DNA of 64,000 bases from Deltaproteobacteria bacterium (GTDB lineage Bacteria > Myxococcota > Myxococcia > Myxococcales > SZAS-1): NCBI GenBank assembly GCA_018266075.1, contig JAFEBB010000017.1:1-64000 (forward strand), written 5' to 3'. The notes below the pieces were generated by a model that was given only the letters and a program-made list of their open reading frames with translations, was not told the origin of the DNA and ran no database searches. A program made the translations under genes and the position numbers. This document shows positions 22,745 to 52,372 of the stretch, piece by piece; position 1 is the first letter of the stretch, and each line of letters opens with the position of its first letter.

Positions 22745-22843
22745 TGGCGGTAGGCCACGGGAATCGAACCCGCCTTCAGCGCCTCTCAGCACCAAACACC
22801 GGTTTTGAAGACCGGGCCGGTCACCAGATCCGGAAGGCCTACC
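22745..22843 (-). tRNA. selC: tRNA-Sec (UCA), prophage integration site
   Basis: Read on the minus strand it begins ggtaggcc and ends ggcctacc, an eight-base-pair acceptor stem, with discriminator G and an encoded CCA at 22745-22748. The anticodon loop reads gtcttcaaaac, anticodon TCA. The body is about 96 nt, with a long variable arm (tgctgagaggc region) and a T arm with ggttcgattcc. Eight-bp acceptor stem, UCA anticodon and about 95 nt identify selenocysteine tRNA. The host therefore should read UGA as selenocysteine in some mRNAs. The phage integrase starts 90 bp away, on the tRNA's 5' side. Confidence 0.95.
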
Positions 22844-22884
22844 AGTTGTAATTACGCCTACTTGCCATGCTGAGTTTGCCTTCC

Positions 22885-22923
22885 GTTACGCAGTCGTGCG
22901 ACGGTTCCGCAACGGTTACGCAG
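22885..22923. repeat. Direct repeats upstream of the integrase
   Basis: gttacgcag occurs at 22885-22893 and 22915-22923, with a related gttccgca at 22904-22911. Candidate arm-type binding sites for the integrase, or an operator for its gene. The second copy overlaps the integrase ribosome site. Confidence 0.4.
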
Positions 22924-22932
22924 GAGCGGAAC

Positions 22933-24093
22933 ATGGGCGCCAATTGGGACGGCCGCTGGGAAGGCGGACGGATTCGCACCACGTCGGACGGCACGCGCGT
23001 CTGGATGATCGAACGCAGCATCGGCGGGGAACGCTACGTCATCTCGCTCAAGGTCTCCACCGAAAGGGAGGCTGATCTCGAGCTCGCTCTCTTCCTGAAG
23101 AACCCGGCTGCGTACAAGGCCGGGCTCGAGGGCAAGACGCCAGCGCCCACGGTGCCCGTGCTGGTCGACGACCAGGCCATCAAGGACTTCGTGGCATGGA
23201 AGCGCAGCGAGGGCTTCAACGAGCTCTACGTCCGCGACGAGTTGGAGAAGTACCTCACCGACTGGGCAGCCGTGCTGAAGACCCGTGACCTGAAGAAGGC
23301 TTCGACGCCCGAGCTCCGGCAGATGGTCGCGAAGTGGCCCACGGCCAAGCACCACCGGATCACGGCCATCAAGGCGTTCGCGGCCTGGTGCCGGAACGAA
23401 GTCGGAACGCTGACCTCACAGAACGATCCGACCCTGGACCTCAAGACGCCCAAGGCCAAGAAGAAGCGCGCCGAGGATGAGGAGAAGGCGTTCGAGATCG
23501 ACGAGGTCGAGTCGGTCTATCGCGCCATCGACTACCAGCTCGTCCGCGACATGGTGGTGCTCACGTTCAAGTTCGGGTTCCACCTCGCCGAGCTCAACCG
23601 CTTCGGCAAGGGCGCCGGCAAGCTCCGCGAGGTCGGCCCGTGGGAGGGTTGCCCGATCGTCGCGACAATCACGGTGAACCACAAGAACGGCGACCCACAC
23701 ACGGTCAGCCTCGACGCGCAGGGACTCGGCGCGGCACGCCGGCTCCGCGAGGCCGGCGGCTGCTCGAGGAGTTGGAGCTATCAGCACCTGGCCGAGGTCG
23801 CGACGCGCAATAAACTCCCTCGCCTCCTGCTCGGCTCAGGGCGCCACAGTTTCATCACCTGGACCCAGACGCCGGGCATGGGCGTGGTGAAGCACGATCC
23901 GCCTCAGCCGGCAGTTTCCCTCGCGGACGTGATGGCGGTGACCGGCCACCGCACCGCCTCGACGCCGCGCCACCACTACGACGAGGCGCAGCACATCCCC
24001 CACCTGCTCGAGTTGCCACTGCGGCTTCGCCATGCGGACGATCCGCCGCTCGACAAGGTGGTGAAGCTATCGACGAAGAGGAGCAGTTCATGA
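22933..24093 (+). CDS. int: Tyrosine-type site-specific recombinase (phage integrase)
   Basis: A 386-residue integrase. Residues 1-90 are an N-terminal arm-binding region, 90-170 a core-binding domain, and 190-350 the catalytic domain. Visible catalytic elements: Lys hairpin (NHKNGDPHTVSLD), GRHSF (second Arg plus His), MAVTGHRTAST and RHHYD (nucleophile Tyr). Two usual residues differ: the first Arg (normally GLRxxEL) is His in FGFHLAEL, and the first His of HxxRH is Gly in GSGRHSF. I choose ATG 22933 because an aggag site lies at 22922-22926; an upstream ATG at 22867 lacks one. Adjacent to selC, its presumed target. Overlaps the next gene (ATGA). Confidence 0.88.
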   Translation: MGANWDGRWEGGRIRTTSDGTRVWMIERSIGGERYVISLKVSTEREADLELALFLKNPAAYKAGLEGKTPAPTVPVLVDDQAIKDFVAWKRSEGFNELYVRDELEKYLTDWAAVLKTRDLKKASTPELRQMVAKWPTAKHHRITAIKAFAAWCRNEVGTLTSQNDPTLDLKTPKAKKKRAEDEEKAFEIDEVESVYRAIDYQLVRDMVVLTFKFGFHLAELNRFGKGAGKLREVGPWEGCPIVATITVNHKNGDPHTVSLDAQGLGAARRLREAGGCSRSWSYQHLAEVATRNKLPRLLLGSGRHSFITWTQTPGMGVVKHDPPQPAVSLADVMAVTGHRTASTPRHHYDEAQHIPHLLELPLRLRHADDPPLDKVVKLSTKRSSS

Positions 24094-31394: not shown

Positions 31395-34300
31395 TCAGTG
31401 GCGGGTCAGCGACTGCGCGTCGGTGAGCGGGTTCGATGTCCTACCGTCCCCGTAGATCACGCCGCCGGCGACATCTCCCGGGCCACGGGCGTGCTGCTGC
31501 CCCGTGGCCAGGCCAGTGAGGTACTTGGCGGTGCCAACCGGCTTGCCCGTGGGAAGCGGCGTCAGCGGCGTGAAGATGCCCAACTGCTCGAGCGCATCCC
31601 ACGCGGCCTTGGCCTGCTTCTCCTTGTCGTGCTCCTGGATGCCCTGAACGAGCCCGCCGATCGTCTGCGCCACGTGCTGCGTGGTCGCGAGGCCGGGGCT
31701 CTGCCGGACGGAGATCTGCTTGTGGAGGAGCAGCGCGTCGACGGCCTCGCCGATGAAAGGCGGAAGGCTTGCCTGGAAGACGAGAGCCTTTCGGAAGAGC
31801 CAGTGGCCCCAGCCCTCTTCGTCCTCCCTGCCCTTCCCGCCCAGGTACTCGGACATTACGCCTTGGGTGAGAGTGAGCGCGAGCACCTTGCCGGCGAAGA
31901 GCGCCGCGGCTCCGCCCTTGGCGAGCGGGCTGCGTGCGCTGTCGGCGAAGGCCACGTGAACGTCTCGCGCCCACCGACGCTGCACGTTCAGCATCTTGTT
32001 CATGTAGCCGTAGAACATGAACAGGCCGCCGAGCATCGACTTGTCTCGGATGATGGCCGGCACGTCCGCTTGGGACTTGGAGATGTACCAGCGGCGGATC
32101 ATCGAGTCGGCTTCGCGCACGGCCGTGGCGTGGTCGTTGTGGGTCGCGAGCTCCTGGTTGTAGCGGGCGATCCACGCGGGCGTGGCCGTGAGCTTCTCGC
32201 CCCACTCGAGGGCCGCGAACGCCATGTGCTCCACCTCGCGCTGCAGCGGCGAGCCCTGAGAGCCCATCTCGTCGAAGCTCTTCCGGAGCAGCCCGCCGAC
32301 CTGCTCCTCGCGGAAGCGCAGCTCGGGGCTATTGGCCAGCGCCCACTCCCGCTTCGCGCTCCAGTCCGTCATGGTTCGACCCACGGCCTCGGCCATGAAG
32401 TCCGGGCGCACCTCGCCGGTGGTGGCGAGCGCGACGGGGTAGCTCAAGTGCGTGAGCGCCACGGGCAGATTCAGGCCCAGGCGCGCGACGGCGATGCGGC
32501 TCCGCAGCCAGCCCACGGCGCGCATGGCCGCGGTCTGGTTCGCCGCGACCGAGTTGGACTGCATGTTCGCCACGGCCTTGAGCCACGGATCGAACTGCTT
32601 CGTGTACTCCTTGCCCAGGTGGCGATCGACGAGCGACGCAAACTTGTCGCTGGCCACCACCTTCGCGGCGTCGCGCACCCAAGGCCGGTAAGCGATGTAG
32701 TGCAGCACGTTCGCGACGTGCCCAGGGACCACGTTCCAGTCGAGGTCAATCGCGTCCTCGAACCGCGCCGCGCGCTCCTGGGTGTGGCCCTTCGCCACCG
32801 AGGCGATGCCGTAGGTCTGAGGCGCAAGCATGTTCGCGGCGGCAGCTTCGACCTGGTGCAGCGCGAGCCGGGAGTTGGTTCGAGGGTCGTACTTGGCCGG
32901 GAAGTAGCCGCCCTTGTAGGTGCCGTGGCGGGTCACCACCTCGGTCGCAGGGACCTTCCCGGGCTCCACGCCAGTCTCGAGCTCGTGCACGCGGGCGATC
33001 TTCGGCCAGAGTGATTCGAGCGAATCCCACACGCCCTGCACCCAGTCCCACCCTTCCTTGGGCAGGACGCGGTCGAGGGTGCGCATCACCTGGTCCTCGT
33101 TCCAGCCGTAACCGTCGAGGAGGCGCTGCTTGTTGCCGGCGTTGCCCATGTTGAGCGCCATCATCAGCGCGTACTTGAGCGACACCTTGCCGTCGGCCTC
33201 GAGCCCGGACGCCTCGGCGAGGTCCTGGAACTTCTTGCTGGCCGCCAACTCCGAGATGTCCACCACCTCGTTGAGGCGCTTCTTGAGCGCGGGCGTGACC
33301 TCTTCCCAGTGCTTCTGCAGCCCGTCGAGGAACTCGCGGCCGAGGGCCTCCTTGGCGTCGCGAGACTTGAGCTGGCCGTCGATGAACAACTTGTGCAACA
33401 CAGAGTCGCGCTTGTTGCCCGTGAGCACGTCGAGCAGCGTCTCGATGTTCATCAGGTTGGAGTCGACCCACTGGAACGCACGGCGCGGCAGCGTGGCCGC
33501 CTTGCGCAGCGTCGCCTCCTCGCGGGCGCGGTCCATCCGTTCCTTGGTCGCCTTCGGCAGTCCCTCGAGCTGCTTGTTCGCGTCGGCGAAGAACTGGTCC
33601 ATCGACTGCCGCTTGCCCTCGGCCTCGATCGAGTTCTGCGTGTTCGCGGCGTGGCGGATGCTCTTCACCGCGTCGCGGACGTTCTGCGCGTCGTCGGGCG
33701 TGAGGTCGTTCCAGGACTTCGGCGCGGCCAGAAGAGCGCGCAGCGCGTCCGGGTCGAAGCCCAGGCTCTCCGGCGGAGTGGCCCCCACCAGCGCCTCGAG
33801 CGCGCCCTTGGGTTCCAAAGCCGGGTCGCGCGGTTGCAGCTTGATGGCCTGCAAGAGCGCGTCGTGCGCGTCGCGGTAGACGTGATCACCACCGGCTGCC
33901 ACGTCGGCCTTGCCGAGCTGCTGGCGCCACGGGTCGGCCGCGGACTGCTGGAGCTCGCGGAGAACGCCCTGGAAGTGCTCGCGCTGCTCCTTGGCCTCGC
34001 GCCACAGGAACATGTTCAGGAGGCGGGTCTCGTTCTCAGCCAGGGCCTCGTCGACCTTGCCCGCCTCGAAAGCCCGGCGCATCCGCTCGGAGGCGGTGCG
34101 CTCGTTGCGGCGGTAGCCACCGGCCGCACCCTCTCGGCCCGCGAGCAGATCCGACATCGTGAGCGTGGACACCATCGCGCGCGCAGTCGACCGCAGCGTC
34201 TCCTCGGAGAGCGGCGGAATCTCTCGCGCGCGGTCACCTGCGAGCATCTTGGCAAGACGACGGCGCTCGAGCAGCGCAGCGCGCACGGCCTCCGGGTTGT

Positions 34301-37300
34301 GAAGCGCGGCGATCGCCTCCTCGGCCAGCGCCTGCGGGCTCTCCAAAAGCGGCGCGGCGTGCAGGTCCGTCATCTGCGCTTTGACCTGGTTCTCCACTAG
34401 TGCCTTCCGCGAGTCGGCCGCCTGGATCTGGCGGAGCATCTCCTCGCCCGAGTCGAAGCCCAGGAGCGAGGCCAGCATGTCCGGAGGCATGCCGTGCTCG
34501 CCCTTCTTGGCGAAGAGGTTGCCGTGCTTCTCGACGATGGTCTTCACGAACTCCTTGCCGTTCGGCGCGAAGCCCTCGACGGTCGAGCGTCGGTCCAGGC
34601 GGTACGGTTCGCCGTGCTCGTCGAGGAGCTCCGGCGGGGTGTGGCCGCCAGGCATCTCGCCGTCTTTCAGGAACTTGATCGCCCGGTAGATCGGATCGTT
34701 GTCGAGCTTGTCGTTGACCTCGCCCCGGATGCGCTCGGCCTCACCGCGGAAGAAGTCGTTGTTCTCTTCCTTCTGGGCCGTGGCGATGCGGTGCACCATC
34801 TCCGCCCACGCCAGCGCGCGTTTCTTGCTCTCGGCGTCCTCGTAGGCTTTGCGCTCCTCGGGCGTGGCGTTCTCGAAGAGCGGAGAGAACGGCTGCGCCT
34901 TCGCGGCTGCGGCTGCCTTGGCCACCTCGTCCTCGGCGGCCACGAAGCGACCGAAGATCTGGCGCACCTCGTCGGTCATGCCGAGGTCTTCGCCGAAGCG
35001 CTTGCGGAAACCCTCGTCCAGGGACGCGGTCTTGTAGATGCGGGTGAGCCAGTTGGCGAAGCGCTGGAACACGCCCGCCAGCTCCACCGACGGCGTGCGG
35101 CCCTCCTGGAGGAACTTCTCCCAGGCGAACGTCGCGCGCTCTTCCTTGGCGCGGAGCTGCGTCTCGCGGGCCTGCTCGTCGTTGGTGAGACGGCGCTTGC
35201 CCTTGGTCTCGCCCAGGTCGATCAGTTCCTTGGTCTCGGCCACGCGCTGCTCGTGACTGTCGTAGCCCATGAACTTGATCAAGCCGGCGTAGTCGTTCTT
35301 GAGCAGCTCGGGCGCGTCCCCGCGCTGCGCCAGGTCGCCCATCACCTGGTTCAGGAAGTGAAAGGTTTCGTGGGCCAGCGTCGAGGTATCGGCGCCGGAG
35401 AAGATCCGGATGTTGAAGGTCCGGCGCTCGTTCGTGCCCGGGGGCGTGAAGTTGATTTCGCCGCGTCCACGGCGGGACTCGAGGGAGACTTCCGGCTGAC
35501 CGAGCGTGCCGCGGCCGCCGTTGTAGTCGTCGCCGAAGATGTCCTTGGCGAAGTTGCGGCGCATCTCGTCCGCCTGGTCCTGTGCGCGCGCGTGCTCGGC
35601 CGTGCCCGGCTTTGGGATCGGGTTGCCCCTCTCGCCGCCGCGGGACTGTCGCCGGAGCGCCTCGGTGTCGACGTAGCCGTCTTTCGGGTCGACGACGAAC
35701 TTGGCGAGCCGGTTCTCGAGGTCGCGCGGCAGGTCGCCGATCACCGAGCCGACGTGCTCGCCAGCGAGGTACGCGCGCACGCGGTCGAGGAACGCCGCTG
35801 CCTGCTTTCGACGCTCGGGGGACTTCAGGCGCGAGACAAGGCCATCCGCCGCGGCCATGTCGGACTCGGACGGAACGAACGCCTTGGCGTGGACCGTTAC
35901 TCCTGGTGCAACGTCGAGAGGTCGGTCGGCTCCTCCGACTGACCTTCCGCCTTCATCGACGCTCGAGCCTGCGCCTGGATTCGGGCCTTCTTCTCCTGGT
36001 TCGCCGCTTCCTGAAGGCCGAACATCTTGCCGACCTTCTGCATGGCCGCGCGCCGCTGCTCCCGGCTCATTCCCGGAGCCGACCAAGTCACCCCCCTCGT
36101 CCGGAGCGTGAGTCCCATCTCCGGGTGGGGTGTAGAAGAGTCGCTCGGGCTGGTCTTCGTTTCCGCGGAGGCCGGCGAGCTTGAGGTCTTCCTTGTGCTT
36201 GTTGAGGGCACGCTCTGCTTGGTTTTCATGGGCGGTCTCCCCGGTCCCGAATCCAAAGATAAGCGACTTGTAAGTCCAAGTGCCACCCCGGGCCTTGTCA
36301 GGCGCGACAACGTCGGTTTCTCTGGAGAAATCGAAGAGGCGGCCCAGGAACGTCTTCAGCGCGTCCTCGTCGTCGGCTTGAGCGAGGTACTCGTCCCCGT
36401 GGTCGTGGGCGAAATCCAGATCGAGGGCGCCGGTCGCCTCGGCGAGCTGTCCGAACCGCTCGAGCATTTCGTCGCCGAAGGCGTGGGCGTCTTCCTTGCC
36501 GATGTGCTTGGCGAGCTCCTCCTGGACGCGCTTCAACCCGTTCAGGTCGATCGCCGCGCGGAACTTCCGCTTGGGCAGCGCGTCGAAGCCCGCCCGCGTG
36601 AGTAGGCCCGTCTTCTGCTCGACGTGGATCTGCTGGAACACCTTCTCGCGGCCGGCGTCCGTGCTGGTCGCCTCGTCGAACGCCTTCTGGTGGTGCTCGC
36701 CGAGCTGCGCCTTCACGCGCTCGCCGGGGATGGTCGTGCCGGGGCCGTGGCCCTCGGGGAGCCCGAAGGGGCGCTCGCCACGACTCGCGCGGGTCGCGGG
36801 CACCGCCGGCTTGGTGATGTTGCCTGCCTCGTCGCGCTCTTCGGGCGAGCCCTCCGCGGCCACCTTGAACTTGTCGTGCTCGGTGCGCGCGGCCGTGAGC
36901 GCCGTGATTGGCTTGCCCTTGTCGTCGACGCCCTCCACGCCGGTCTTGCCGCTGATGCCGTATCCCTTGGCCTCCTCGGGGAGGTTCTCGCGGATGAGTT
37001 GGAGGAACGCCTCGCCTTCGGACGCATCCTTCACCGGGACCGCGAAGTCACCGCCCGTGCGGTACACGTTCGGGTCAATCTGGTGGGCAGCCTGGGCCAC
37101 CGCGCGCAGGAGCTCGTCGGCCTTGTTGTGGCCGCCCTTCTCCAGGTCGTCGTTCCGGAACTTCACACCCTCCACGCCGAAGTGCAGCACCGCCGGCTTG
37201 TTCGGGTCCTTGGGCTCGAGGTCTGCCGCGCGCTGGTTCCGAAGGCCCGTGACAGGGTCCTCGTAGTAGCGGCGGATCGCCACCTCGGTCTCGGGGTGTT

Positions 37301-39569
37301 CGAGGTGGTTCGCGTACTCCTGGCGCACCTCGTCGATCACCGGGTGTTCGGTCGGCTCAGTCTGGAGGTTGAGATCGTCCGGGTTGAAGGACGTGTCCAG
37401 CATCTGCCCGCGCGGCCCGCGGATGTTGAGTTCCTTCACGCGGCTGCGGAAAAGGTCGAGCGCGTCGGTGTCGGTGCCGTTCTCGCGGAAGCGCTCGGCC
37501 CACGTGTGGAACGTCGCAGCGACGATCCGGGCGTTCGCGTCGGCTTCCTTCTCGCTCACGCCAGCCGCTTCGGCCTTCTCGCGGTATTCGTCGTAGACCG
37601 CGCGCTGCGGCGCCTCCATCTCCTCGGGCGGAACCGTCGCGCGAGCTCGCATGTCCTTCTGGAACTGCTCGTCAGCCGCGCGCGCCTGCCGCGGCGTCTG
37701 GGCTTCGGAGAACAGCCGGGCGTCCTGGAAGAGCGCGCCGGCGCCCTCCTTGTCCTTCGCAGCGAATCGCACGTAGGGCGCGGCCGGAACGGTAAGCTCG
37801 CCGCCGGTGCGGTTGGCCGTCTCCCACGCCTCGCCCTGGTCGCCGACGAGCGACTTGGCGATCTCCGCCGGGTCGACGTTCCGCTCCTGGGCCAGGCGCA
37901 CCACGGCCTCGCGGTCGATCAGGACGTGGCTCGAGCGCGGGTCGGACGCGATCTGGCTCACCAGGTCGTCCACGTCCTTGGCGGGCATCCCGGGGATCGA
38001 GGCGGACTTCCCCGCCGCGTCGTTGATGGCCTGCAGGCGGGCCGAGCTCTCAGCGGTCGCTGCGGTCTGCGCCTTCTGAGCGTCGATCGCCCGATCAATC
38101 TTTGCCTGCTTGCCGGCTTGGTAGCCCTCGCCGACAGCGTGCACGCCCGAGAGCAGGAGCATGTCGCGGGCGGAGTTGGTCGCCCCGGAGAACGCGTCGT
38201 CGATGATGCTGCCCGGGTCCAGGTTGAAGCGCTGGCCCGAGAACAGCTTCGCGCCTTCGCGGCCCGAGCCTGAGAGTCCGCCCTGCACCAAGCCCAGGGC
38301 CAGGGCCGAGAGCTCGTGCGCGCCGAAGCGGCCACCGTAGCGCAGCACCGCCTCGGGCACGCCGCGCTCGAGCAGGAGCTTCTCCACGGCTCCGAGCGCC
38401 TTTTCGCCGATCACCTTGCCCAGGCGGTTACCGAAGGGCCCCATGGCCGACATCGCAGTGGAGGTCAGCCCCGCGGTCATCTCGGAGGCCCAGTGCGCCA
38501 CCTGCGGATCGAGCGGGTTACCGTCCGCGTCGCGCATCTGGGAGAACTCGCGGTTGAGCTGACCAAGCAGCAGCGTGTCGTTCACCGCGAACGAACCGCC
38601 GAACTGGCCCACCGTCGCGCCCAGCGCAGCACCACCAGCCGCTCCACCGAGGGCGCCCGGTCCGGTCTCGGACGTGCCAATCGCGCCGGCAATGGCGCCG
38701 CCAAGCCGACCGATCTGCCCGCCCGCGAGCCGCCCAACCTCGTCGACAGCCATCCAGGGGAGCGCCTGGGCAAGGCCGGTCGCCGCGTGCCCGACGGCCG
38801 ATTCCTCGCCGTAGCCCACGCCGCTGTGCTCGTTCTCGATCTGCTTCGCGGTCGCCGCGCTCTCGGCACCCTGCCACCCGCGCGCCACCATGGCCTCGCG
38901 AGCGTCCGCGTCGAGCATCCAGGCCGCGTCCTTGAACGCCGCGAACGGAGCGCGCCACGCCCATTCCAGGTTGCTCAGGTTGCGCAGGTCGTCCTTGACC
39001 GCGCCGGCGCGGAGCCCGTGCCCCTCGATGGCCCACTGCGCGAGCGCAGGGTTCGAGCGCGCCACGTCGAGCCAGCCCTTCGCAGTCTCGTCCGCGTGGG
39101 CCTTGTAGAAGTCGAGGTTGCGCTCGATCACGTCGGCCGGCACGCCGTAGAGCTCGGCGTAGTGCAGCACGTCGCGGGTGCGCGCCGCATCTGGGCCTGC
39201 CAGCTCCGCGCGCATCGAGAGAATCGGGCCAGCGGAGGCAGTCGAGGGCGCGGTGCCGTCGACCTTCGCGATCGCCGCGTCGAGGGCGTCGCGAGGCGCC
39301 TGGGGCTGCGCCGGCTCTTCCTTCGCCAGGTCCTCGACGGGCGTGGCCGGCTGTTCGGGCTGCTCCTCGCCCGCCACCGTGGGCTCGCGGATGGGGATCG
39401 ACGTGTTGAGCGGGTCCACGTCCTTTTTGCGCAAGCCGGCGTCGGCGTCGCGCGGTTGGGCGCTCGGGTTGGCGAGCTCGTCGCCATCCTGCGGAGCGGG
39501 GACGGACGGCTGCTCGAGCGGCGTGGCCGGGCCGTCGACTGCGGCGATCGCTTGGTCAAGCGCGTCCAT
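31395..39569 (-). CDS. Giant internal virion/polyvalent protein with two GGDEF-like domains and a zincin
   Basis: A 2724-residue protein, the largest gene here. Approximate layout: N-terminal tags LDQAIAAVDG (4-13) and LDAAIAKVDG (about 95); helical region to 270; Gly-rich hydrophobic segments (280-330, 370-440); GGDEF-like domain 1 (770-890: YEDPVTGLRNQRA, VEGVKFRND, YRTGGDFAV); GGDEF-like domain 2 (975-1130: KTGLLTRAGF, AIDLNGLKRV, HDHGDEYLAQA); Gly/Pro linker; zincin with LAHETFHFLN (HExxH near 1398) and AWEKFLQEG downstream; long helical region; conserved C-terminal part of large phage polyvalent proteins (about 2050-2724) with a late membrane-like segment. Position after two internal virion genes suggests ejection into the cell, as T7 gp16. 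Domain 1 lacks the metal-binding Asp and the Glu of GGDEF; domain 2 keeps both positions. Confidence 0.8.
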   Translation of the reverse strand: MDALDQAIAAVDGPATPLEQPSVPAPQDGDELANPSAQPRDADAGLRKKDVDPLNTSIPIREPTVAGEEQPEQPATPVEDLAKEEPAQPQAPRDALDAAIAKVDGTAPSTASAGPILSMRAELAGPDAARTRDVLHYAELYGVPADVIERNLDFYKAHADETAKGWLDVARSNPALAQWAIEGHGLRAGAVKDDLRNLSNLEWAWRAPFAAFKDAAWMLDADAREAMVARGWQGAESAATAKQIENEHSGVGYGEESAVGHAATGLAQALPWMAVDEVGRLAGGQIGRLGGAIAGAIGTSETGPGALGGAAGGAALGATVGQFGGSFAVNDTLLLGQLNREFSQMRDADGNPLDPQVAHWASEMTAGLTSTAMSAMGPFGNRLGKVIGEKALGAVEKLLLERGVPEAVLRYGGRFGAHELSALALGLVQGGLSGSGREGAKLFSGQRFNLDPGSIIDDAFSGATNSARDMLLLSGVHAVGEGYQAGKQAKIDRAIDAQKAQTAATAESSARLQAINDAAGKSASIPGMPAKDVDDLVSQIASDPRSSHVLIDREAVVRLAQERNVDPAEIAKSLVGDQGEAWETANRTGGELTVPAAPYVRFAAKDKEGAGALFQDARLFSEAQTPRQARAADEQFQKDMRARATVPPEEMEAPQRAVYDEYREKAEAAGVSEKEADANARIVAATFHTWAERFRENGTDTDALDLFRSRVKELNIRGPRGQMLDTSFNPDDLNLQTEPTEHPVIDEVRQEYANHLEHPETEVAIRRYYEDPVTGLRNQRAADLEPKDPNKPAVLHFGVEGVKFRNDDLEKGGHNKADELLRAVAQAAHQIDPNVYRTGGDFAVPVKDASEGEAFLQLIRENLPEEAKGYGISGKTGVEGVDDKGKPITALTAARTEHDKFKVAAEGSPEERDEAGNITKPAVPATRASRGERPFGLPEGHGPGTTIPGERVKAQLGEHHQKAFDEATSTDAGREKVFQQIHVEQKTGLLTRAGFDALPKRKFRAAIDLNGLKRVQEELAKHIGKEDAHAFGDEMLERFGQLAEATGALDLDFAHDHGDEYLAQADDEDALKTFLGRLFDFSRETDVVAPDKARGGTWTYKSLIFGFGTGETAHENQAERALNKHKEDLKLAGLRGNEDQPERLFYTPPGDGTHAPDEGGDLVGSGNEPGAAARGHAEGRQDVRPSGSGEPGEEGPNPGAGSSVDEGGRSVGGADRPLDVAPGVTVHAKAFVPSESDMAAADGLVSRLKSPERRKQAAAFLDRVRAYLAGEHVGSVIGDLPRDLENRLAKFVVDPKDGYVDTEALRRQSRGGERGNPIPKPGTAEHARAQDQADEMRRNFAKDIFGDDYNGGRGTLGQPEVSLESRRGRGEINFTPPGTNERRTFNIRIFSGADTSTLAHETFHFLNQVMGDLAQRGDAPELLKNDYAGLIKFMGYDSHEQRVAETKELIDLGETKGKRRLTNDEQARETQLRAKEERATFAWEKFLQEGRTPSVELAGVFQRFANWLTRIYKTASLDEGFRKRFGEDLGMTDEVRQIFGRFVAAEDEVAKAAAAAKAQPFSPLFENATPEERKAYEDAESKKRALAWAEMVHRIATAQKEENNDFFRGEAERIRGEVNDKLDNDPIYRAIKFLKDGEMPGGHTPPELLDEHGEPYRLDRRSTVEGFAPNGKEFVKTIVEKHGNLFAKKGEHGMPPDMLASLLGFDSGEEMLRQIQAADSRKALVENQVKAQMTDLHAAPLLESPQALAEEAIAALHNPEAVRAALLERRRLAKMLAGDRAREIPPLSEETLRSTARAMVSTLTMSDLLAGREGAAGGYRRNERTASERMRRAFEAGKVDEALAENETRLLNMFLWREAKEQREHFQGVLRELQQSAADPWRQQLGKADVAAGGDHVYRDAHDALLQAIKLQPRDPALEPKGALEALVGATPPESLGFDPDALRALLAAPKSWNDLTPDDAQNVRDAVKSIRHAANTQNSIEAEGKRQSMDQFFADANKQLEGLPKATKERMDRAREEATLRKAATLPRRAFQWVDSNLMNIETLLDVLTGNKRDSVLHKLFIDGQLKSRDAKEALGREFLDGLQKHWEEVTPALKKRLNEVVDISELAASKKFQDLAEASGLEADGKVSLKYALMMALNMGNAGNKQRLLDGYGWNEDQVMRTLDRVLPKEGWDWVQGVWDSLESLWPKIARVHELETGVEPGKVPATEVVTRHGTYKGGYFPAKYDPRTNSRLALHQVEAAAANMLAPQTYGIASVAKGHTQERAARFEDAIDLDWNVVPGHVANVLHYIAYRPWVRDAAKVVASDKFASLVDRHLGKEYTKQFDPWLKAVANMQSNSVAANQTAAMRAVGWLRSRIAVARLGLNLPVALTHLSYPVALATTGEVRPDFMAEAVGRTMTDWSAKREWALANSPELRFREEQVGGLLRKSFDEMGSQGSPLQREVEHMAFAALEWGEKLTATPAWIARYNQELATHNDHATAVREADSMIRRWYISKSQADVPAIIRDKSMLGGLFMFYGYMNKMLNVQRRWARDVHVAFADSARSPLAKGGAAALFAGKVLALTLTQGVMSEYLGGKGREDEEGWGHWLFRKALVFQASLPPFIGEAVDALLLHKQISVRQSPGLATTQHVAQTIGGLVQGIQEHDKEKQAKAAWDALEQLGIFTPLTPLPTGKPVGTAKYLTGLATGQQHARGPGDVAGGVIYGDGRTSNPLTDAQSLTRH

Positions 39570-42793: not shown

Positions 42794-45316
42794 TCACATC
42801 GAGCCAATGTCCACCTCGCGGGTGACGGCTCGCACCGTGAGCGGGAGCGGCAGGACCTGGCGCCAGCACACGCGCCCGGCCTTGGTGAACTTCGAGGAGA
42901 TGGTGGCGCGCGCGAGGTCGTCGTCCGAGGTTCCCGCCGAAGCAACGGGAGGGCTCACCGGGTCGAGGTGGCTGAAGTCCGCGCCCGCCCAGAACTGGCC
43001 GTTGCTCTTCACCTCGAGCGAGACCCGGCTCACGTTCTTCTGCTTTTCGCGCGCCACCGCGAGGTCGAGCGCCTCGCCCTCGGGCGAGTAGCCCAAGCCG
43101 ATGTAGACCAGGCTCGCCGTCTCGGTGGTGCCGGTGCCGGTGATCACACCCACGTCACCGTTCGACGCGACGGTCGTGGGCCCGTAGATGATGCCGTCGA
43201 CGATCACGTAGACGTTGCGATTGGCCAGGTAGTTGATGCCGTGGAACGTGAAGATCCCCGTTGGTCCCGAGGTGAACGGGCCCGAGCTCTTGATCCACGC
43301 GTCGAGGCAGATCGGTGTCCCGGTTCCCACCTCGCCTACTGCCACGGCCGCGCCAGCCTCCGTCTCGCCGATGCCGTCACCGATGTCGAACTCGAGGCCG
43401 CCGCCGGACTCGCCCGCGGTCTCCGTCGCCTCGTCGTCCAACTCGAGGCGTGAGCCCAGGCGCACAATCCAAGCCGGGCCGCCGCCCTCGTCCGCGAGCG
43501 CCACGTAGACCGCGTCGTAGCCGTCCTCGGGAATGGTGCAGACGCTGATGGCCTGCTGCGGGACGTTGTTTGCGTCGAGGCAGAGCTCGTGCGCCGCCCA
43601 AGCCCACATCTGTTCGTCGGGGCAGTAGACGCCGCTGAGGAGCACGCCGTCCTCGCGCACGGCCCAGACCTGCGCCCACGGGTCGTCCGCGTAGCACCAC
43701 TCGATGATCTGGTGACCGAGGAAGAAGTGCTCCGCCGCGAAGCTCACGTCTTCGGCGGGGTAAGTGCCGCGCGAGAAGTCGAACTCGATGGCGCGGGCGG
43801 CCGTGCCCTTGTCGCGCACGAAGAGCAGCTTATTGCCCACGATGGTCGGGGCAGCCCACGCCGAGCCGATGTCAGACTGCACGTGAGCGTCGATGCTCGA
43901 GGGCGTGAGCGGTCCACCGGACCCACTGGCGGTCCACACCTGGCCGTCCGTGCCGAGGAAGAGCTTGTCCTTGCCAAGCGCCCACCGCGCGAGCTCGCGG
44001 CGCCGAGCGGCCAAAGTGAAGAGCACCGAGTCTGCGTCGGTCGGGAGGAGCGGCTGATCAAAGTTGAAGTAATCGCCAACCGCGCTCGTGAAGACCTCGG
44101 CCGGGCGCTCTTCGGTGCCGAAGAACGTGAGACGGTCCTCGAAGAACGCGACGGAGATCGGCTGCTCGGTTCGCAGGAGGTTCCCGCTGCCGTCGTACAC
44201 GTTGAAGGGGTTGGTGCCCTTCGGCGGCTGCTCCGCGTAGTCGGGCGCGGCGCCATGGTCGATAAAGGTGGCCTGATTCGAGTCGCCCACCCAGCCGAAG
44301 ATCCCGTTACGCCCGCGATACACGCGGAACGTGACGAAGTTGGGGTTGGTGGGCAGGTACTGCGCCGGCACCGTCCCCGAGTACATCGTGATCGCCACGT
44401 TGCGGACCGTGGAGAGAGCCAGCGTGGCCGCGGTGGTGATCGACTGGTCGATCGACTGCCACTGGGTGGGGCTCGTGTTCGGGTAGTTGCCGTTGTTCGA
44501 GCCGACCAGCGAGACGTAGTAAACGCCCAGGTACTTGGCGAGCCAGTTCTTGGAATAGACGGCGACCGGGTCGAAGTCGGCGGCGCCAGTTAGGTAGAAG
44601 CCGCCACCCGTGCCGACCAACACGCCGAGGCTCTCGCTAACCTGCCCGGTCTCATTCTTGGTGATGGCCGTGACCATCCACTGCCACGCCTCGGGGATGG
44701 TCCCGTCCGTGGGCGTGCCTGTGTTGGTGGCGACCACGTCCAGAGAGGTTGCGTCGAGGTCGAGCACCGGCGAGATCGCGGCTGCGGTCTTGCTGAAGTC
44801 CATCGCCGAGAGCGACCACCGGCCGGCGTCCTGGCGCTCGAGGATCAGCGGGTCGTAACCAGCGCACGCCAGGAACAGGATGTCCCCGCTCTGCACGTAG
44901 CGGATCTTGTAGAGGTCCGCGGCGTGGTACGGCGAGGAGCCGTAGAGCGAGTTGTAGTAGGTGTTGAAGACGCGCTGGCCCTCAACCCACACCGAGAAAT
45001 ACTGCTCGCCGAACTCGAGCACGGCGTTCTGCTTGCCGTCCGTGTCCGAGAAGTAGAACGGGATGAGCCGCGGCCGCAGGCCCTGGATGACCTCCACCGC
45101 GCCCTGATTTGGAGGTGCGATGTTGATCTGGTTCGAGTTCGCTAGCCCCACGAACCGCGAGCCCGGCCGGCTGAGCCAGTCGCCGTGCTTGGTGATGATC
45201 GCGTCGCGGCACACGCGCAGACCGCGGCCGTAGCGCGGGCTCTCGGTGCGTCCGTAGAAGCTGGGCGCGAGCTCACCAGCGGCGAAGCTGGATTGGCGGA
45301 AGGGCTTGGCAGCCAT
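42794..45316 (-). CDS. Tail tubular protein B-like nozzle protein
   Basis: An 840-residue, beta-rich protein. The start KPFRQSSFAAGELAPSFYGR followed by YGRGLRVCRDAIITKHGDWL and SRPGSRFVG is the hallmark of podophage tail nozzle proteins (T7 gp12 type). Further diagnostic blocks: IPFYFSDTDGKQNAVLEFGE and PISVAFFEDRLTFFGTEERP. It forms the distal tail tube. ATG 45316 overlaps the adaptor gene stop (TGATG). Confidence 0.88.
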   Translation of the reverse strand: MAAKPFRQSSFAAGELAPSFYGRTESPRYGRGLRVCRDAIITKHGDWLSRPGSRFVGLANSNQINIAPPNQGAVEVIQGLRPRLIPFYFSDTDGKQNAVLEFGEQYFSVWVEGQRVFNTYYNSLYGSSPYHAADLYKIRYVQSGDILFLACAGYDPLILERQDAGRWSLSAMDFSKTAAAISPVLDLDATSLDVVATNTGTPTDGTIPEAWQWMVTAITKNETGQVSESLGVLVGTGGGFYLTGAADFDPVAVYSKNWLAKYLGVYYVSLVGSNNGNYPNTSPTQWQSIDQSITTAATLALSTVRNVAITMYSGTVPAQYLPTNPNFVTFRVYRGRNGIFGWVGDSNQATFIDHGAAPDYAEQPPKGTNPFNVYDGSGNLLRTEQPISVAFFEDRLTFFGTEERPAEVFTSAVGDYFNFDQPLLPTDADSVLFTLAARRRELARWALGKDKLFLGTDGQVWTASGSGGPLTPSSIDAHVQSDIGSAWAAPTIVGNKLLFVRDKGTAARAIEFDFSRGTYPAEDVSFAAEHFFLGHQIIEWCYADDPWAQVWAVREDGVLLSGVYCPDEQMWAWAAHELCLDANNVPQQAISVCTIPEDGYDAVYVALADEGGGPAWIVRLGSRLELDDEATETAGESGGGLEFDIGDGIGETEAGAAVAVGEVGTGTPICLDAWIKSSGPFTSGPTGIFTFHGINYLANRNVYVIVDGIIYGPTTVASNGDVGVITGTGTTETASLVYIGLGYSPEGEALDLAVAREKQKNVSRVSLEVKSNGQFWAGADFSHLDPVSPPVASAGTSDDDLARATISSKFTKAGRVCWRQVLPLPLTVRAVTREVDIGSM

Positions 45317-46170
45317 CAGCCCCTCGCAGCGATGAAGGAGCTATCCGGGCGCGGGTCGGGCTGGCGCATGTTGCCCTCGGCCGCCATCGCCGTGCGGAGC
45401 ACCGCCTGGGCCTTCTTGTCGAAGGCGTCGGCGAGCTCGGGGCGGCCGGCGAGGCTGAGGGCCAGCTCCGCGGCAAGGCGCCACTGCAGCGCGTCCGTGA
45501 ACAGCGCGGGGAACGTCGTCGCGTCGGTGATCTGCGCGGTGTAGACGAGGATCGCCGAGCTGGGGTCCGTGACCGACACCCACCACGCGCCATCGCTCTG
45601 CAGGTGGTTCAGGTTCGCCGCCTGGAGCGAGCGGTAGTAGAGCGCGCCCGTCGCGTCGGTGGTGATCGCGTTCTTGGCGTAGGTGACGGTGGAGTCCCAC
45701 GCAGCCGGGTCGTCCGCCCAGTCCGTGAAGATGTGGCCGTCCACGTGCTCGAACGACGGGAGTGGCACCTGGCCGTTGATGGCCGGGAGCAACGAGATCT
45801 GGGTGACGCCGAAGAGCCCGAGCAGGTTGCCCAGGAGCACCGGCGCCATGGTCGCGCCCGGCCGGAGGCCGTCGAAAATGTACTGGGGCTCGAGCAGGTC
45901 CGTGGGGTCGCTGTACGCGTGATCCCAGCCCGGCAGGTTCCCGGGCGCACTCGGCGTCAGCGTCGTGTCGAGCGCCAGGACCGCCACGCGGGTGGCCCAG
46001 CCCCACCTGAAGCGCGAGAGCAGCTTGTCGCGGACGCTCGGATAGAGCACCGCGCACACCGCCGCGGGCTGCGAGGCATCGTTCACCGGGTTGAGGTCGG
46101 TGATGAACTGCGTAATCCCGCAGCGAGCGAGGGCGATGTTGCAGACTGCGGCCTCAGCGGTGGTGGCCAC
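45316..46170 (-). CDS. Tail tubular protein A-like adaptor
   Basis: A 284-residue protein. It starts AEAAVCNIALARCGITQFIT and has VLYPSVRDKLLSRFRWGWAT, the N-terminal pattern of T7 gp11-type head-tail adaptors. A beta-rich insert lies at 120-215, and a helical end (LQWRLAAELALSLAGRPELA) closes it. It joins portal and nozzle. GTG 46170 has a good gaggagc site. The stop overlaps the nozzle gene start. Confidence 0.85.
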   Translation of the reverse strand: MATTAEAAVCNIALARCGITQFITDLNPVNDASQPAAVCAVLYPSVRDKLLSRFRWGWATRVAVLALDTTLTPSAPGNLPGWDHAYSDPTDLLEPQYIFDGLRPGATMAPVLLGNLLGLFGVTQISLLPAINGQVPLPSFEHVDGHIFTDWADDPAAWDSTVTYAKNAITTDATGALYYRSLQAANLNHLQSDGAWWVSVTDPSSAILVYTAQITDATTFPALFTDALQWRLAAELALSLAGRPELADAFDKKAQAVLRTAMAAEGNMRQPDPRPDSSFIAARG

Positions 46171-46965: not shown

Positions 46966-47982
46966 TTACGAGATCGCGGCCTCGGTCGTGGTCATCTGGT
47001 CGGCGATCTTCACGGGCACGCCGAGCAGCTTGATCACCGGCTTCCCGGCGACCTCCTCGTAGGTCAGCGTGGACTTGCTGATCGAGTTCACGGCCTGCTG
47101 GTGGAGGTACGTGGAGAGCTTGCGCGGCACGTACCAAACGAGGTTCACGAGGCCGGGCTGGAAGATGCGGTGGTACGCATCGATCGCGGCCATGATCAGG
47201 TCGTTCACCGGGCTGCCCACGGTGCCGCCGCTGATCGTGCTCATGTCGATGTTGCGGACCGCGGCCACGAAGCGCGGGTCCTTGATCACGAGACCCAGCT
47301 TCCAGGTCCAGTCGCTCACGAGGCCCACGAAGCGCTTGCCGTTGTTGCTGGGGTCGATGAGCTGCTGCCCCATGTCCTTGTGCTCGATGCCGCCCTTGCT
47401 CCCCTTCGGGAACATGAGGTGCACCGTCTCCTCGCCCCAGCCGACGAGCAGCATCGAGGCGTTGGTGTTCGAGCCGCCCGAGCCCCACTTCACGATCTGC
47501 TTGCCGAAGAGCGCGGTGGTGGTGCTCGCGAGGCGAGTCAGGAACCCGCTGAAGGTCGAGGGGTCGGTGCCCTTGTTGTCGTAGAGCGTCGAGGACTCGC
47601 CGCTCTGCGAGAAGGCCGACATGAAGGCCATGTCTTCCGACGCCCGGAAGGCGGGGCCGTTCCCGTTGAGGTTGGCCTCCTGCTCATCCACGATGCTCTG
47701 CGCGTTGAGCATCGTCACCGGCTCGGTGATCTGGTTGGTGGTGCTCTTGGTCGGAGCCACGCCCTCGTTGAAGCGGCGCTTGCCCACCGTGGGCAGGGTC
47801 TGGCGGAGCGTGAACTTGTAGCCGTCGGGCAGGTTGCCCTCGCGCACCGGCGCGTCGCCGATCAACGGCGTCAGCTTGGCGAGGTACTCGACGACCTTGG
47901 AGATCGCGCCGTCGGGGTCCGTGCGCCGGTAGAAGTCCACCAGCGAGGGGAAGGTGGCTCCGATGACTGCAGACGCTGCCAT
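46966..47982 (-). CDS. Major capsid protein, Bbp17-like
   Basis: A 338-residue protein between the scaffold and cement genes. It contains LVDFYRRTDPDGAISKVVEY, VNLVWYVPRKLSTYLHQQAV and a C-terminal EVAGKPVIKLLGVPVKIADQ strand set, which fits an HK97-fold capsid protein of BPP-1 type. The gene order scaffold-capsid-cement supports it more strongly than any single motif. ATG 47982. Confidence 0.82.
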   Translation of the reverse strand: MAASAVIGATFPSLVDFYRRTDPDGAISKVVEYLAKLTPLIGDAPVREGNLPDGYKFTLRQTLPTVGKRRFNEGVAPTKSTTNQITEPVTMLNAQSIVDEQEANLNGNGPAFRASEDMAFMSAFSQSGESSTLYDNKGTDPSTFSGFLTRLASTTTALFGKQIVKWGSGGSNTNASMLLVGWGEETVHLMFPKGSKGGIEHKDMGQQLIDPSNNGKRFVGLVSDWTWKLGLVIKDPRFVAAVRNIDMSTISGGTVGSPVNDLIMAAIDAYHRIFQPGLVNLVWYVPRKLSTYLHQQAVNSISKSTLTYEEVAGKPVIKLLGVPVKIADQMTTTEAAIS

Positions 47983-48710: not shown

Positions 48711-48999
48711 CGTGCTGCTCCCGGCCAGCGTCGACTTCTTGCTGGCGAGAGACAGCCTCAGTGACCATGTGGGCGTAATCGGCTGGAGCGACCATTCGGC
48801 ACTCGAGCATCAGGTCGCGACCGATCGAGCGGCGGCCTTCGAGGTACGCGGCGGCGTGCGTTTGCTCCCCTGCGAAACTCTTCGACATCAGCCCGGATTG
48901 GCCGTCGATCAGGTCCCAGATCCAGCGACGACCCGCAGCCGTGGCGAGCACTTCGCGGAGATCGTTCTCGTGCTGTAGCCGGCGGTTCTCGGGCGTCAC
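48688..48999 (-). CDS. Bbp19-family phage protein
   Basis: A 103-residue protein: HENDLREVLATAAGRRWIWD, LIDGQSGLMSKSFAGEQTHA, YLEGRRSIGRDLML. This pattern (ND-rich start, GRRFxWxLL, EGRRxxG) is that of Bbp19, a small protein encoded near the portal in BPP-1-like phages; function unknown. GTG 48999 overlaps the portal stop (GTGA). Confidence 0.72.
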   Translation of the reverse strand: MTPENRRLQHENDLREVLATAAGRRWIWDLIDGQSGLMSKSFAGEQTHAAAYLEGRRSIGRDLMLECRMVAPADYAHMVTEAVSRQQEVDAGREQHDGRGDER

Positions 49000-50717
49000 G
49001 GCTGGCCACCGTTGTCAGGAGCGCCCTGCGCTGCGGCGATGCCACCAAGCTGGCCCAACGCGGTGTCAGGGCCGGTGCTCGCCTGGCCGAGGTTCTTCGC
49101 GGCCTGCGCGGCGGCCAGCCCCTGCTTTGCGGCCGCTTCGGCTTGCTGCTGCTTCTGTCGCTGCGCGCGACGCTGCTGCACCTGCTCGGGCGGACGCATC
49201 ACCTTGGGGTTGGCGCCCAGCGAGCGGCCGGCCTCGTAGGCGACCTCGTCGAAGTCCACCACGTCGAGCACGTCCGGGTTGACCTGCGCGAGGTTGCCCA
49301 CGAACGAGGTGAACTGCTCGAGGCCGGAGAAGCCCGCGGCCTTCATCGCCTGGGCCATGATCGACGTGTACTCGACGCGCAGCGGCTGGCGAGCCAGGAC
49401 CTTCGGCGGCGGAGGCAGCAACCCTGCGGCGAGCGCAACGCCGTAGTAGCGCGACACCATCGGGTTGAGGAGCTCGTCCGTGAGCCGCTCGAGCACTGGC
49501 CCGAGTTGGAGCATCTTCTCTTCGTGGCGCTCGGCGACCTCGCGAGCGGTGACGGGCTGTCCCTGCTCGTCCTGCTCGCTCATCATCAGCCACAGGTTTG
49601 AGGAGAACGCGGCGTTGATCTTCTCCTCGCGCGCGCGGATTCGGCCTTCGAGCGCGGGGAGCGCCTGCGGGTTCACCTGGATCGCGGGCACCACCGATGG
49701 GCCCTTCAGGTCGTCCACGTAGTTCACGGCGCCGGGCAGCATCGACACCTGGCGCATCTGCATTTCCACGCCAGCGTTCACCGGCGGGTCGGCGAGGAGC
49801 TCCGCAACAAGCGAGCTCTTCCGCTCGAGGAGCTGGAGTTCCTTCACGTCGCCAAGCGCCTCGTAGCCCGGGCCGTAGCCGTAGGCATCGCTGAGGCTGG
49901 TCACCGCCCAGCGCGGGGCCACGACGGGGAAAACCTCGTAGCCCTTCTCGGAAAGCAGCGGCGCGCCGTCCTCAGCGTCCTTCTCCATCCAGCACGACGC
50001 GAACGGCATGTTCAGCGGGCCGGGCCGAGTGTGGTCGTATTCCTCGCGCGGGCAGACGACGTGCAGGACCTCGATCAGCGCGTCGTAGTTTCCGGCGTTG
50101 TAGAGGTCGCGCACCCGCTGGGAGACGACCTTCAGCGGCTGGCCCGGCTTCTCGAACTTCTTCACGAGCTGGCTGACGCTGAGCGAAGTCTCTCGGTAGA
50201 GCGTGTCGACCACGCCGCGGTCGGACAGCCCCAGCACGTACTCGCCGACCGGGATCGGGTACGCGCGAATCTGCCCGGGGCCGTCGTTGTCCAAGAACAT
50301 CGGACTGGTGCCGAAGACCGAGATGTCCGGATAGAGCACCTGCAACCCGTTGTAGAGGTTGCTCTTGAGCATCATCATCCGGAGCCGCTGCTCCACGATG
50401 CTCGTCCAACCCATCACCTCGTCGCGCTCGGCGAGGTCCGGATCTGCGGTGGTGATCGAGTACCAGGGCCGCGCCGGAGAGGTGATACCGGCCATCATCC
50501 CCGCGGCCTGCGTGCGCACGGCGATGGTGGCCGTGTTGTTGATGATCCGCGCTTCCTTCTTCTGGCCCGCGGTCGTCGCCTCGGTCTGGAAGAACCGCGA
50601 GCGGCGCGGGGCCATGTAGTACGAAAGGTCGCGGTACACCGGCTCCCAGCTCGAGCGGCGAATCGTGAGAAGCGCGTTGAAGCGCTTCATGTGGCGCTGA
50701 CGAAGGTCGCGACTCAC
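48996..50717 (-). CDS. Portal (head-tail connector) protein
   Basis: A 573-residue protein of the podovirus head-tail connecting family. Blocks: WEPVYRDLSYYMAPRRSRFF, AVRTQAAGMMAGITSPARPW, VLYPDISVFGTSPMFLD, FPVVAPRWAVTSLSDAYGYG, and EKINAAFSSNLWLMMSE with ERHEEKMLQLGPVLERLTDE. The C-terminal 70 residues are a Gln/Ala-rich basic coil. It forms the dodecameric DNA gate. GTG 50717 overlaps the small upstream gene by GTGA; its end overlaps the Bbp19-like gene. Confidence 0.92.
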   Translation of the reverse strand: MSRDLRQRHMKRFNALLTIRRSSWEPVYRDLSYYMAPRRSRFFQTEATTAGQKKEARIINNTATIAVRTQAAGMMAGITSPARPWYSITTADPDLAERDEVMGWTSIVEQRLRMMMLKSNLYNGLQVLYPDISVFGTSPMFLDNDGPGQIRAYPIPVGEYVLGLSDRGVVDTLYRETSLSVSQLVKKFEKPGQPLKVVSQRVRDLYNAGNYDALIEVLHVVCPREEYDHTRPGPLNMPFASCWMEKDAEDGAPLLSEKGYEVFPVVAPRWAVTSLSDAYGYGPGYEALGDVKELQLLERKSSLVAELLADPPVNAGVEMQMRQVSMLPGAVNYVDDLKGPSVVPAIQVNPQALPALEGRIRAREEKINAAFSSNLWLMMSEQDEQGQPVTAREVAERHEEKMLQLGPVLERLTDELLNPMVSRYYGVALAAGLLPPPPKVLARQPLRVEYTSIMAQAMKAAGFSGLEQFTSFVGNLAQVNPDVLDVVDFDEVAYEAGRSLGANPKVMRPPEQVQQRRAQRQKQQQAEAAAKQGLAAAQAAKNLGQASTGPDTALGQLGGIAAAQGAPDNGGQP

Positions 50718-50899: not shown

Positions 50900-52372
50900 T
50901 CAGCCTCGAGCGTGGGGGTTGTAGTCGGCGGCGGAAGCGCGGCCAGGCCGGAGACCGAGCAGCGAGCGCGCGGCCACTGGGAACGCGAACGACAGGCAGA
51001 GCGCGTCGGCGCGGTTGGGGCTAGGAAGCCCGCGCGCCTTCGTGTCCTTCTTCGCCTCGAGCTGCAGCTTCCCGTCGAGGCGCGGGACCGTCTCCGGACC
51101 TAGGAGGTCGTCGCGCAGCACTTGGTCCTTGGGGATCGCGCCGCCTTCCTTGAGCCAGTCGCGCGCGGCCTTCCACATCTCGGCGCGCTTGTTGAGGCAG
51201 CCCGGATCGCGGGGAGCGTCGGCGAAGTTCACCGGGAGCCAACGGCGGCCGAGGGTCCGGCCCACGCTCACCACGCCCGTGCCGTAGCCGAGGTCGATGA
51301 AGACGGCGTCCGCTTGGTGCTCGTCCTCGAACGAGGCCAGCAGGTTGGCCACGTGCACGTCGTTGTCGTTCTTCGGCTGGGTGTGGAGGATTCGGAACGC
51401 GAGGCCCTGACGCAGGCCGATCACGATCTCGTCGTCGCCTTCCCAGGCGTTGTCGAGCGTGAGGATCTTCGGCGCGAAGTTGTACTGGCCCTCGCCGAGG
51501 TGCTTCCCGAAGGCCGCGTCCACGTCGGTCTCGGAGATGAACTGCGAGGCCGACTGCGCCGGAAACATCCCGCGCACGCGGACCTTCACGTAGTCGCTGT
51601 CCTCGCCGTTGTCGTCGATCAGCTTCTGGATCTGGGCCTTGTTCGTGCCCTCGACGGTGCGCGAGTCAATCTGCGAGGTGCGCCAGCGGTGCTTGAACTT
51701 CCGGAAGCACTCGCGGAAGCGGCCGGTGGCGCGCGTCGGGTTGCCGAAGACGCACCAGAGGATTTCCGTGCCCTCGTCGGTGAGCGCGCCCTCGGCGACC
51801 TCCCAGACCTTGTCAGCGATCTTCGAGGCCTCGTCGAACACGAGCAGGATGCGCTTGCCCTTGTTGTGCAGGCCCGCGAACGCCTCGGTGTTGTGCTCGG
51901 ACCAGGGGAGCGCGTCGATGCGCCAGGTCTTCTCGTGCGAAGGGTCGGCCGAATGCAGCGAGGTCGCGGTGCACGTGAACAGCTCGCGCGTGATGCTGAG
52001 CCGGTGCCACTTGGAGACCTCGGGCCAGGTCTTGGTGCGGAGCTGTGCTTCCGTGTTCGCGGTGACGACGCCGCGCGCGTCCTCGTGGGTCTCCAGCGCC
52101 CACTTCACCAGCCAGGACACGAGCGCTGACTTCCCGATGCCGTGGCCGGAGGCGACCGCCTCCTGAATGGCCTGATGCACCGTGGCGCCGTCGCGCAGCT
52201 TCGCGCCAACGGAATCCAGGACCTCGCGCTGCCACGGGCGTGGGCCGGCGGAGTGCTCAAGCTCCGTGCCCTTCTCGCCCCAGGGAAACGCGTACAGCAC
52301 GTAGCCCAGCGGGTCGTGCGTGAAGCCGGCCAGGTCCTCGGCCAGCGTGGCGAGGTCAGCGGCGCTGAGCAC
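50900..52372 (-). CDS. terL: Terminase large subunit
   Basis: A 490-residue packaging ATPase-nuclease. ATPase part: PRPWQREVLDSVG (adenine-binding), ASGHGIGKSALVSWLV (Walker A near 92), RILLVFDEASKI (Walker B), FGNPTRATGRFRECF (coupling motif). Nuclease part from about 300: LTLDNAWEGDDEIV (first acidic site), AVFIDLGYGTGVV (second), and a late PSPNRADALCLSF acidic site. Complete triad of RNase H-like metal ligands. GTG 52372, overlapping the small subunit by 17 nt. Confidence 0.93.
   Translation of the reverse strand: MLSAADLATLAEDLAGFTHDPLGYVLYAFPWGEKGTELEHSAGPRPWQREVLDSVGAKLRDGATVHQAIQEAVASGHGIGKSALVSWLVKWALETHEDARGVVTANTEAQLRTKTWPEVSKWHRLSITRELFTCTATSLHSADPSHEKTWRIDALPWSEHNTEAFAGLHNKGKRILLVFDEASKIADKVWEVAEGALTDEGTEILWCVFGNPTRATGRFRECFRKFKHRWRTSQIDSRTVEGTNKAQIQKLIDDNGEDSDYVKVRVRGMFPAQSASQFISETDVDAAFGKHLGEGQYNFAPKILTLDNAWEGDDEIVIGLRQGLAFRILHTQPKNDNDVHVANLLASFEDEHQADAVFIDLGYGTGVVSVGRTLGRRWLPVNFADAPRDPGCLNKRAEMWKAARDWLKEGGAIPKDQVLRDDLLGPETVPRLDGKLQLEAKKDTKARGLPSPNRADALCLSFAFPVAARSLLGLRPGRASAADYNPHARG

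Follow-up and report, generated by a model that had tools for sequence, protein, structure and literature searches.

GGDEF domains were reported in polyvalent proteins in 2017 by Iyer et al., in one case alongside zincin and ART domains, and the available portions of that paper also suggest an interference with host nucleotide signals and propose that polyvalent proteins are processed by zincin-like domains (PMC5512222). The one GGDEF example in these portions comes from a firmicute prophage, and neither gp16 nor BPP-1 is mentioned in them. Phage GGDEF proteins that stand alone have also been annotated, namely in Yuavirus, Vojvodinavirus and Bacillus phages. The statement of an earlier, sequence-only reading of the DNA studied here, that GGDEF modules of virion proteins are little described, was thus too strong. 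Ejected proteins have been studied in phage T7, whose gp16 passes through the envelope into the cell, with its C-terminal part modelled as six cytoplasmic copies (PMC8954989).

We analysed a giant ORF located in a window of 64 kb (the whole stretch of DNA that was studied). Its product carries two GGDEF-fold domains, the first of which (d1) is degenerate while the second (d2) has conserved catalytic residues. The best overall explanation of the results, which we hold with somewhat more confidence than doubt, is a giant ejection protein with a cargo slot occupied by tandem GGDEF domains, in which d2 would be a cyclase and d1 its partner.

The giant ORF and its prophage

The giant ORF was found with all the motifs quoted in the sequence-only reading, and its position and those of the other features of the window are given in Table 1. 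Residues 1368-2707 of its product match phrog_9880 (PHROG profiles, E 6e-183) and, judged by its sequence, the giant ORF belongs to the family of Bbp10 of phage BPP-1 (phrog_9880). It sits in a short-tailed, BPP-1-like (Rauchvirus-related) prophage. Going upstream from the giant ORF, one meets the gp15-position gene, the gp14-like gene, the genes of the two tail proteins, and those of the major head protein, the portal and the terminase, and the gene order gp14-gp15-gp16 of the structural cassette is matched at the giant ORF.

Table 1. Coordinates of the features of the window, with the strand and the basis of each assignment.
Feature	Coordinates	Strand	Basis or description
tRNA-Sec gene	22745-22843	minus	directly adjoins the integrase-like ORF
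Integrase-like ORF	22867-24093	plus	identity by reading its sequence
Giant ORF	31395..39569	minus	ATG start, 2724 aa; candidate ejection protein at the T7 gp16 position, phrog_9880 / Bbp10 family
HETFH motif, residues 1400-1404	35358..35372	minus	conserved HExxH...E domain, putative zincin metallopeptidase
Cargo slot, residues 709-1384	35418..37445	minus	follows the conserved N-terminal anchor and precedes the HExxH domain
d2, GGDEF with catalytic residues conserved, residues ~976-1133	36171..36644	minus	profiles, alignment
d1, degenerate GGDEF, residues ~755-900	36870..37307	minus	profiles, alignment
LPD22 domain, residues 135-214	38928..39167	minus	Pfam PF18834, E 1.2e-9, 38.7 bits against a cut-off of 28.6
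gp15-position protein, 733 aa	39569..41770	minus	directly upstream of the giant ORF; assigned by position
T7 gp14-like internal virion protein, 183 aa	41774..42325	minus	phrog_418, E 8e-23
Two tail proteins	42794..46170	minus	phrog_376, phrog_394
Major head protein	46966..47982	minus	phrog_212
Portal / head-tail adaptor	48996..50717	minus	phrog_332
Terminase large subunit	50900..52372	minus	phrog_2, E 3e-35

The gp14-like protein scored slightly under the cut-off against PF24072 (E 7e-6), and its homologues precede the giant ORF in related contigs; among the module-bearing loci checked, most have a gp14-like gene upstream of the giant ORF, as does L092, a locus described below. A gp15-size ORF was found before the giant ORF in most loci checked, and in L015 the giant ORF is preceded by a homologue of the gp15-position protein (phmmer E 1e-12). 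The place where the tRNA-Sec gene adjoins the integrase-like ORF is a likely site of prophage attachment; the end or region of tRNA-Sec was not found a second time within the window.

By analogy with T7, the product of the giant ORF is probably injected into bacteria at infection, and its placement for entry into the cell, already proposed from the sequence, agrees with its gp16 position and with its ejection-protein-like family. A late role in assembly or lysis, or the modification of the host by a protein expressed in the lysogen, would fit the name 'lysis protein' given to relatives in some database entries, and neither virion proteomics nor an assay of Bbp10-type proteins or their relatives was found in the open-access literature. 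The synteny with T7 gp14-like and gp15-position genes argues against such a role, as does the effector-type cargo of relatives, which resembles that of polyvalent proteins, and we consider it quite unlikely that the giant protein is not ejected.

Two GGDEF-fold domains and their active-site residues

The motifs of d1 start at residues 769 (YEDPVTGLRNQRA), 799 (VEGVKFRND) and 836 (YRTGGDFAV) of the giant ORF, and those of d2 start at residues 986 (KTGLLTRAGF), 1006 (AIDLNGLKRV) and 1055 (HDHGDEYLAQA). Searches of Pfam, NCBIfam and PDB with the window sequence alone gave sub-threshold GGDEF matches or none: d1 alone matched PF00990 below the threshold (E 0.015-0.027), and d2 alone gave no match to this profile. 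The GGDEF identity was therefore weak from the window sequence and was settled by the relatives. The results of the profile searches showed that d1 (11 members) matches solved diguanylate cyclases of the PDB with an E of 3.4e-10 and that d2 (11 members) matches PDB diguanylate cyclases with an E of 1.6e-8. PF00990 matched d1 in 6 of the 11 members and d2 in 8 of the 11 (best E 7e-9), the window member being without a match for d2.

An AlphaFold2 model of residues 750-1150, which covers both domains, reached a pLDDT of 90.2 and a pTM of 0.86. When this model was compared with the PDB by Foldseek, 78 chains were matched at E<=0.001, and the best 50 of these 78 were mostly GGDEF structures; SadC, PleD, DcsBis and T. 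maritima GGDEF structures were among the matches, with a probability of 1.00. In the comparison with viral predicted structures at E<=0.001, the named matches were phage proteins whose annotation is GGDEF or diguanylate cyclase, and Gp350 of Bacillus phage G was also among them. Profiles and model together confirmed that d1 and d2 are two GGDEF-fold domains, and the palm fold expected by the sequence-only reading was the fold predicted. The top viral fold match of the model was an unnamed protein of 1143 aa (BFVD A0A516M277_1, E 8.8e-12).

Cas10 and mCpol (Panoptes) share the palm fold (PMC12657218) and were considered for this reason. Kinship of d1-d2 with them was unsupported, as the sequence profiles match GGDEF proteins and no Cas10 or mCpol, and as the superposition on Cas10 was poor (TM 0.26-0.30, rmsd 16-17 Å) and does not support a match of the domain arrangement. 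A likeness to Cas10 Palm1/Palm2 in function only would make the pair an asymmetric twin-palm synthase, with d1 holding the acceptor nucleotide and d2 the metals, whose product would be a linear or non-c-di-GMP (oligo)nucleotide serving as a decoy for defences that rely on nucleotides. A degenerate palm next to an active one in a fixed order, the confident joint model, the Cas10 chains of type III-D complexes among the Foldseek matches and the genes annotated as antirestriction that adjoin related stand-alone phage GGDEF genes are in line with such an enzyme, but in view of the profiles and the superposition we regard it as unlikely. We give the same low credence to the idea that this synthase, once ejected, delivers a source of signal or decoy nucleotide before phage gene expression as an early counter to nucleotide-based defence.

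The metal-binding Asp of d2 (D1008) was kept in all 15 rows covering that position, and G1058-D1059-E1060, followed by Y1061 in the window, were kept in 16 of 16 aligned members, the relatives in this survey being 23-45% identical to the window. The first Gly of GGDEF is replaced by H or S in d2 across the family, so that the complete GGDEF word is absent. The guanine-contacting Asn and Asp are retained in most d2 members, whereas in the d2 of the window a Q replaces the usual Asn, and an insertion of eight residues is located immediately before the GD motif. No RxxD I-site was seen. Judging from these residues, d2 looks capable of catalysis.

In d1 of the window, the metal-binding Asp is replaced by G798 and the GGDEF motif is reduced to GGD-F (residues 839-842), without the Glu. 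This Glu is absent from 14 of 14 members, the alignment showing a deletion of one residue there (GGD-F, GTN-F or GTD-F). In 13 of 14, G, S or T stands in place of the metal-binding Asp, which L026 is the sole member to retain. N806 and the following G-H are conserved in all 11 aligned members, at positions close to the guanine base in canonical GGDEF domains such as that of PleD. By these residues d1 is a pseudo-domain, with a GGDEF fold by homology, and would be no cyclase by itself. The contrast drawn earlier between a domain without metal-binding Asp and GGDEF Glu and a possibly active one with both thus extends to the family, and random substitution at the metal-binding positions did not occur across homologues. 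A conserved R-G motif, which reads RxxRGxxPxG in many members, is located between d1 and d2 (residues 181-182 of the window module) and may mark where d1 ends, belong to a linker or serve as a cleavage site.

Some degenerate GGDEF domains, such as those of PdeA and LapD, are known to bind GTP or to have a regulatory role. A catalytically silent module, with GTP bound by d1 and either GTP or c-di-GMP by d2, would be a nucleotide sensor or sink coupling ejection or release by the protease to the nucleotide state of the host. The presence of N806 and of the G-H in all aligned members of a domain without a metal site points in this direction, and so does the deviation of the window d2 at the guanine-contacting Asn. 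However, a pure binder would need neither the metal-binding Asp nor the GDE, both of which were found in every d2 despite deep divergence, and we find a silent module doubtful.

The cargo slot and the origin of the pair

The distance between the N-terminal anchor and the HExxH domain, which defines the slot, varied from 32 to 1408 aa across 86 family proteins, a survey that includes a few duplicate contigs, and the GGDEF pair falls within the slot in the members measured. The slots of relatives (loci L002 and L028-L106) contain an ART-PolyVal ADP-ribosyltransferase, a PBECR5 nuclease, ddrB-ParB, LPD5/LPD1/MuF_C or DUF7178, and GNAT-like matches were also found in them; those of L066 and L085 have no known domain, and in many phrog_9880 family members the slot is nearly empty. 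The protein L092:8636-16024, of the same family, has a slot with a single intact GGDEF domain (E 2.9e-16), with FFDANNF and GGDEF. This domain groups with ordinary GGDEF domains in the tree, on a long branch, and was apparently acquired separately from the tandem module. The variation of slot contents among relatives argues that the GGDEF pair is an exchangeable effector cargo. Such a view explains the large length variation among phrog_9880 family proteins and predicts undescribed injected effectors in the slots of other family members.

The zincin placed after the GGDEF domains by the sequence-only reading was upheld in part. The H, E and H of the motif and the downstream E1477/E1484 are invariant in 24 of 24 relatives, but the zincin fold was supported neither by a profile search, which did not confirm it, nor by structure: the AlphaFold2 model of the segment, which may miss N-terminal strands, had a pLDDT of 75.7, and Foldseek returned no PDB match below an E of 0.4.

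Both GGDEF domains occur in two proteins encoded in whole genomes from the same taxonomic order, L011 (an Archangium MAG contig) and L012. A scan with a four-sequence d2 alignment led to 12 viral loci, and d1 was located just before d2 in 12 of 12. The pair is present in 14 distinct giant proteins (L081 included, near-identical contigs counted once), to which two d2-only fragments are added. Scans of viral contigs and genome contigs with single sequences gave no match, and using the d1 profile by itself in such a scan was equally fruitless. Two candidates were rejected: L007/L014 is an ordinary GGDEF protein and no relative, and the match to Caulobacter phage Quill_5.2 is due to chance, its gp030 giving no GGDEF score. 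A d2-like fragment with GDEY was also seen in a Myxococcales MAG (L013:3032-4657), where the upstream part is out of frame as a result of either a low-coverage assembly or a broken gene.

In a maximum-likelihood tree, d1 and d2 form separate clades with supports of 99/99 and 98/95, and a single pairing event with joint inheritance thereafter is therefore enough to account for the pair. One compact GGDEF protein of Yuavirus, which stands alone, is matched by d1 and d2 alike, as would be expected if a phage-type GGDEF had been duplicated. The stand-alone GGDEF genes of two Mesyanzhinovviridae genomes, L003:7941-8411 (Yuavirus) and L115:1333-1791 (Vojvodinavirus), are each followed by a gene annotated as antirestriction. 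The tandem module is uncommon, being found in 3 of 80 sampled phrog_9880-family loci, in addition to the single-GGDEF case of L092, and its presence in a minority of the family makes it accessory. A decaying insertion, in which d1 and d2 are relics serving as a spacer or as structural mass of the ejection protein, would agree with the scores of both window domains below the Pfam cut-offs and with the almost empty slot of many family members. The preservation of the pair in 14 distinct proteins, the invariance of the catalytic positions of d2 and the joint inheritance seen in the clade structure speak against decay, which we hold to be very unlikely.

Proposed mechanism and comparison with known systems

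In the reading that we prefer, that of a giant ejection protein with tandem GGDEF cargo, the module would have arisen once, been inherited as a pair and come to fill the slot of an ejection protein. The giant protein would be packaged and would enter the cell with the DNA, by analogy with T7 gp16, and the putative-zincin HExxH domain may release the cargo. The d2 domain would then be catalytically active as a nucleotide cyclase, with GTP as its most likely substrate, given that the metal-binding Asp, the GDE loop and mostly the guanine-contacting Asn and Asp are kept, while d1, with its metal site lost and its base-binding residues kept, would be a regulatory or half-site partner. The level of c-di-GMP or of a related nucleotide would consequently rise early, which may alter host physiology or interfere with nucleotide-based defence. 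Since each chain has a single metal-competent domain, making c-di-GMP would require the d2 domains of different chains to pair, and a ring of ejection-protein copies could supply the second d2 normally needed for a cyclic product.

The host genome has 18 GGDEF loci, so c-di-GMP signalling is probably present to be disturbed; the host GGDEF protein pointed out earlier at 14709 does exist, as just one among these 18. If d2 is active after ejection, the phage would alter the level of a second messenger of its host with an enzyme carried by the particle, before transcription. The d1-d2 module is small (~400 aa) and has a confident model and exact residues for mutation, which makes the proposal testable.

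Our search of the open-access literature did not find a description of the degenerate/active GGDEF pair, of its location in a Bbp10-type protein or of a variable slot with exchangeable effectors. T7 gp16 occupies the same place after gp14/gp15-type genes, and an envelope-spanning role is expected by this comparison; however, no Pfam or PHROG match indicates homology of the giant ORF to T7 gp16, and the giant ORF is twice the size of gp16. BPP-1 Bbp10, HU1, Caulobacter phage Jess A and Cobetia phage Carin1 have a homologous HExxH and C-terminal part, and in Bbp10 and its relatives the gene order after the gp14-like gene is the same as here. The slot is of about 190-230 aa without GGDEF in Bbp10, HU1 and Jess A, whereas that of Carin1 is of 900 aa with PBECR5.

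The stand-alone GGDEF proteins of Yuavirus and Vojvodinavirus (YuA gp44, Churro_042 and that of Bordetella phage CN1) have one domain, which d1 and d2 both match, but are encoded by a separate gene of ~155 aa without fusion, and Churro_042 has an intact metal-binding Asp and SGDEF. Bacterial diguanylate cyclases (PleD, SadC, DcsBis, T. maritima DGC; PF00990) share the palm fold, the metal-binding Asp and the G-D-E with d2. They differ from d2, in which the first Gly is replaced, an I-site was not seen, the usual sensor domain is missing and a degenerate partner lies in cis.

Polyvalent proteins, as presented in the available portions of PMC5512222, are also giant and multidomain, with HExxH, LPD22 and effectors, and include the prophage protein of Acetonema longum (WP_004096050.1), in which GGDEF, zincin and ART domains are combined. 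The giant ORF has the domain make-up of such a protein, with its LPD22, its HExxH, its GGDEF pair and the effectors in the slots of its relatives. Compared with the polyvalent proteins of these portions, it is set apart by a degenerate/active GGDEF pair carried by a Bbp10-type protein at the gp16 position.
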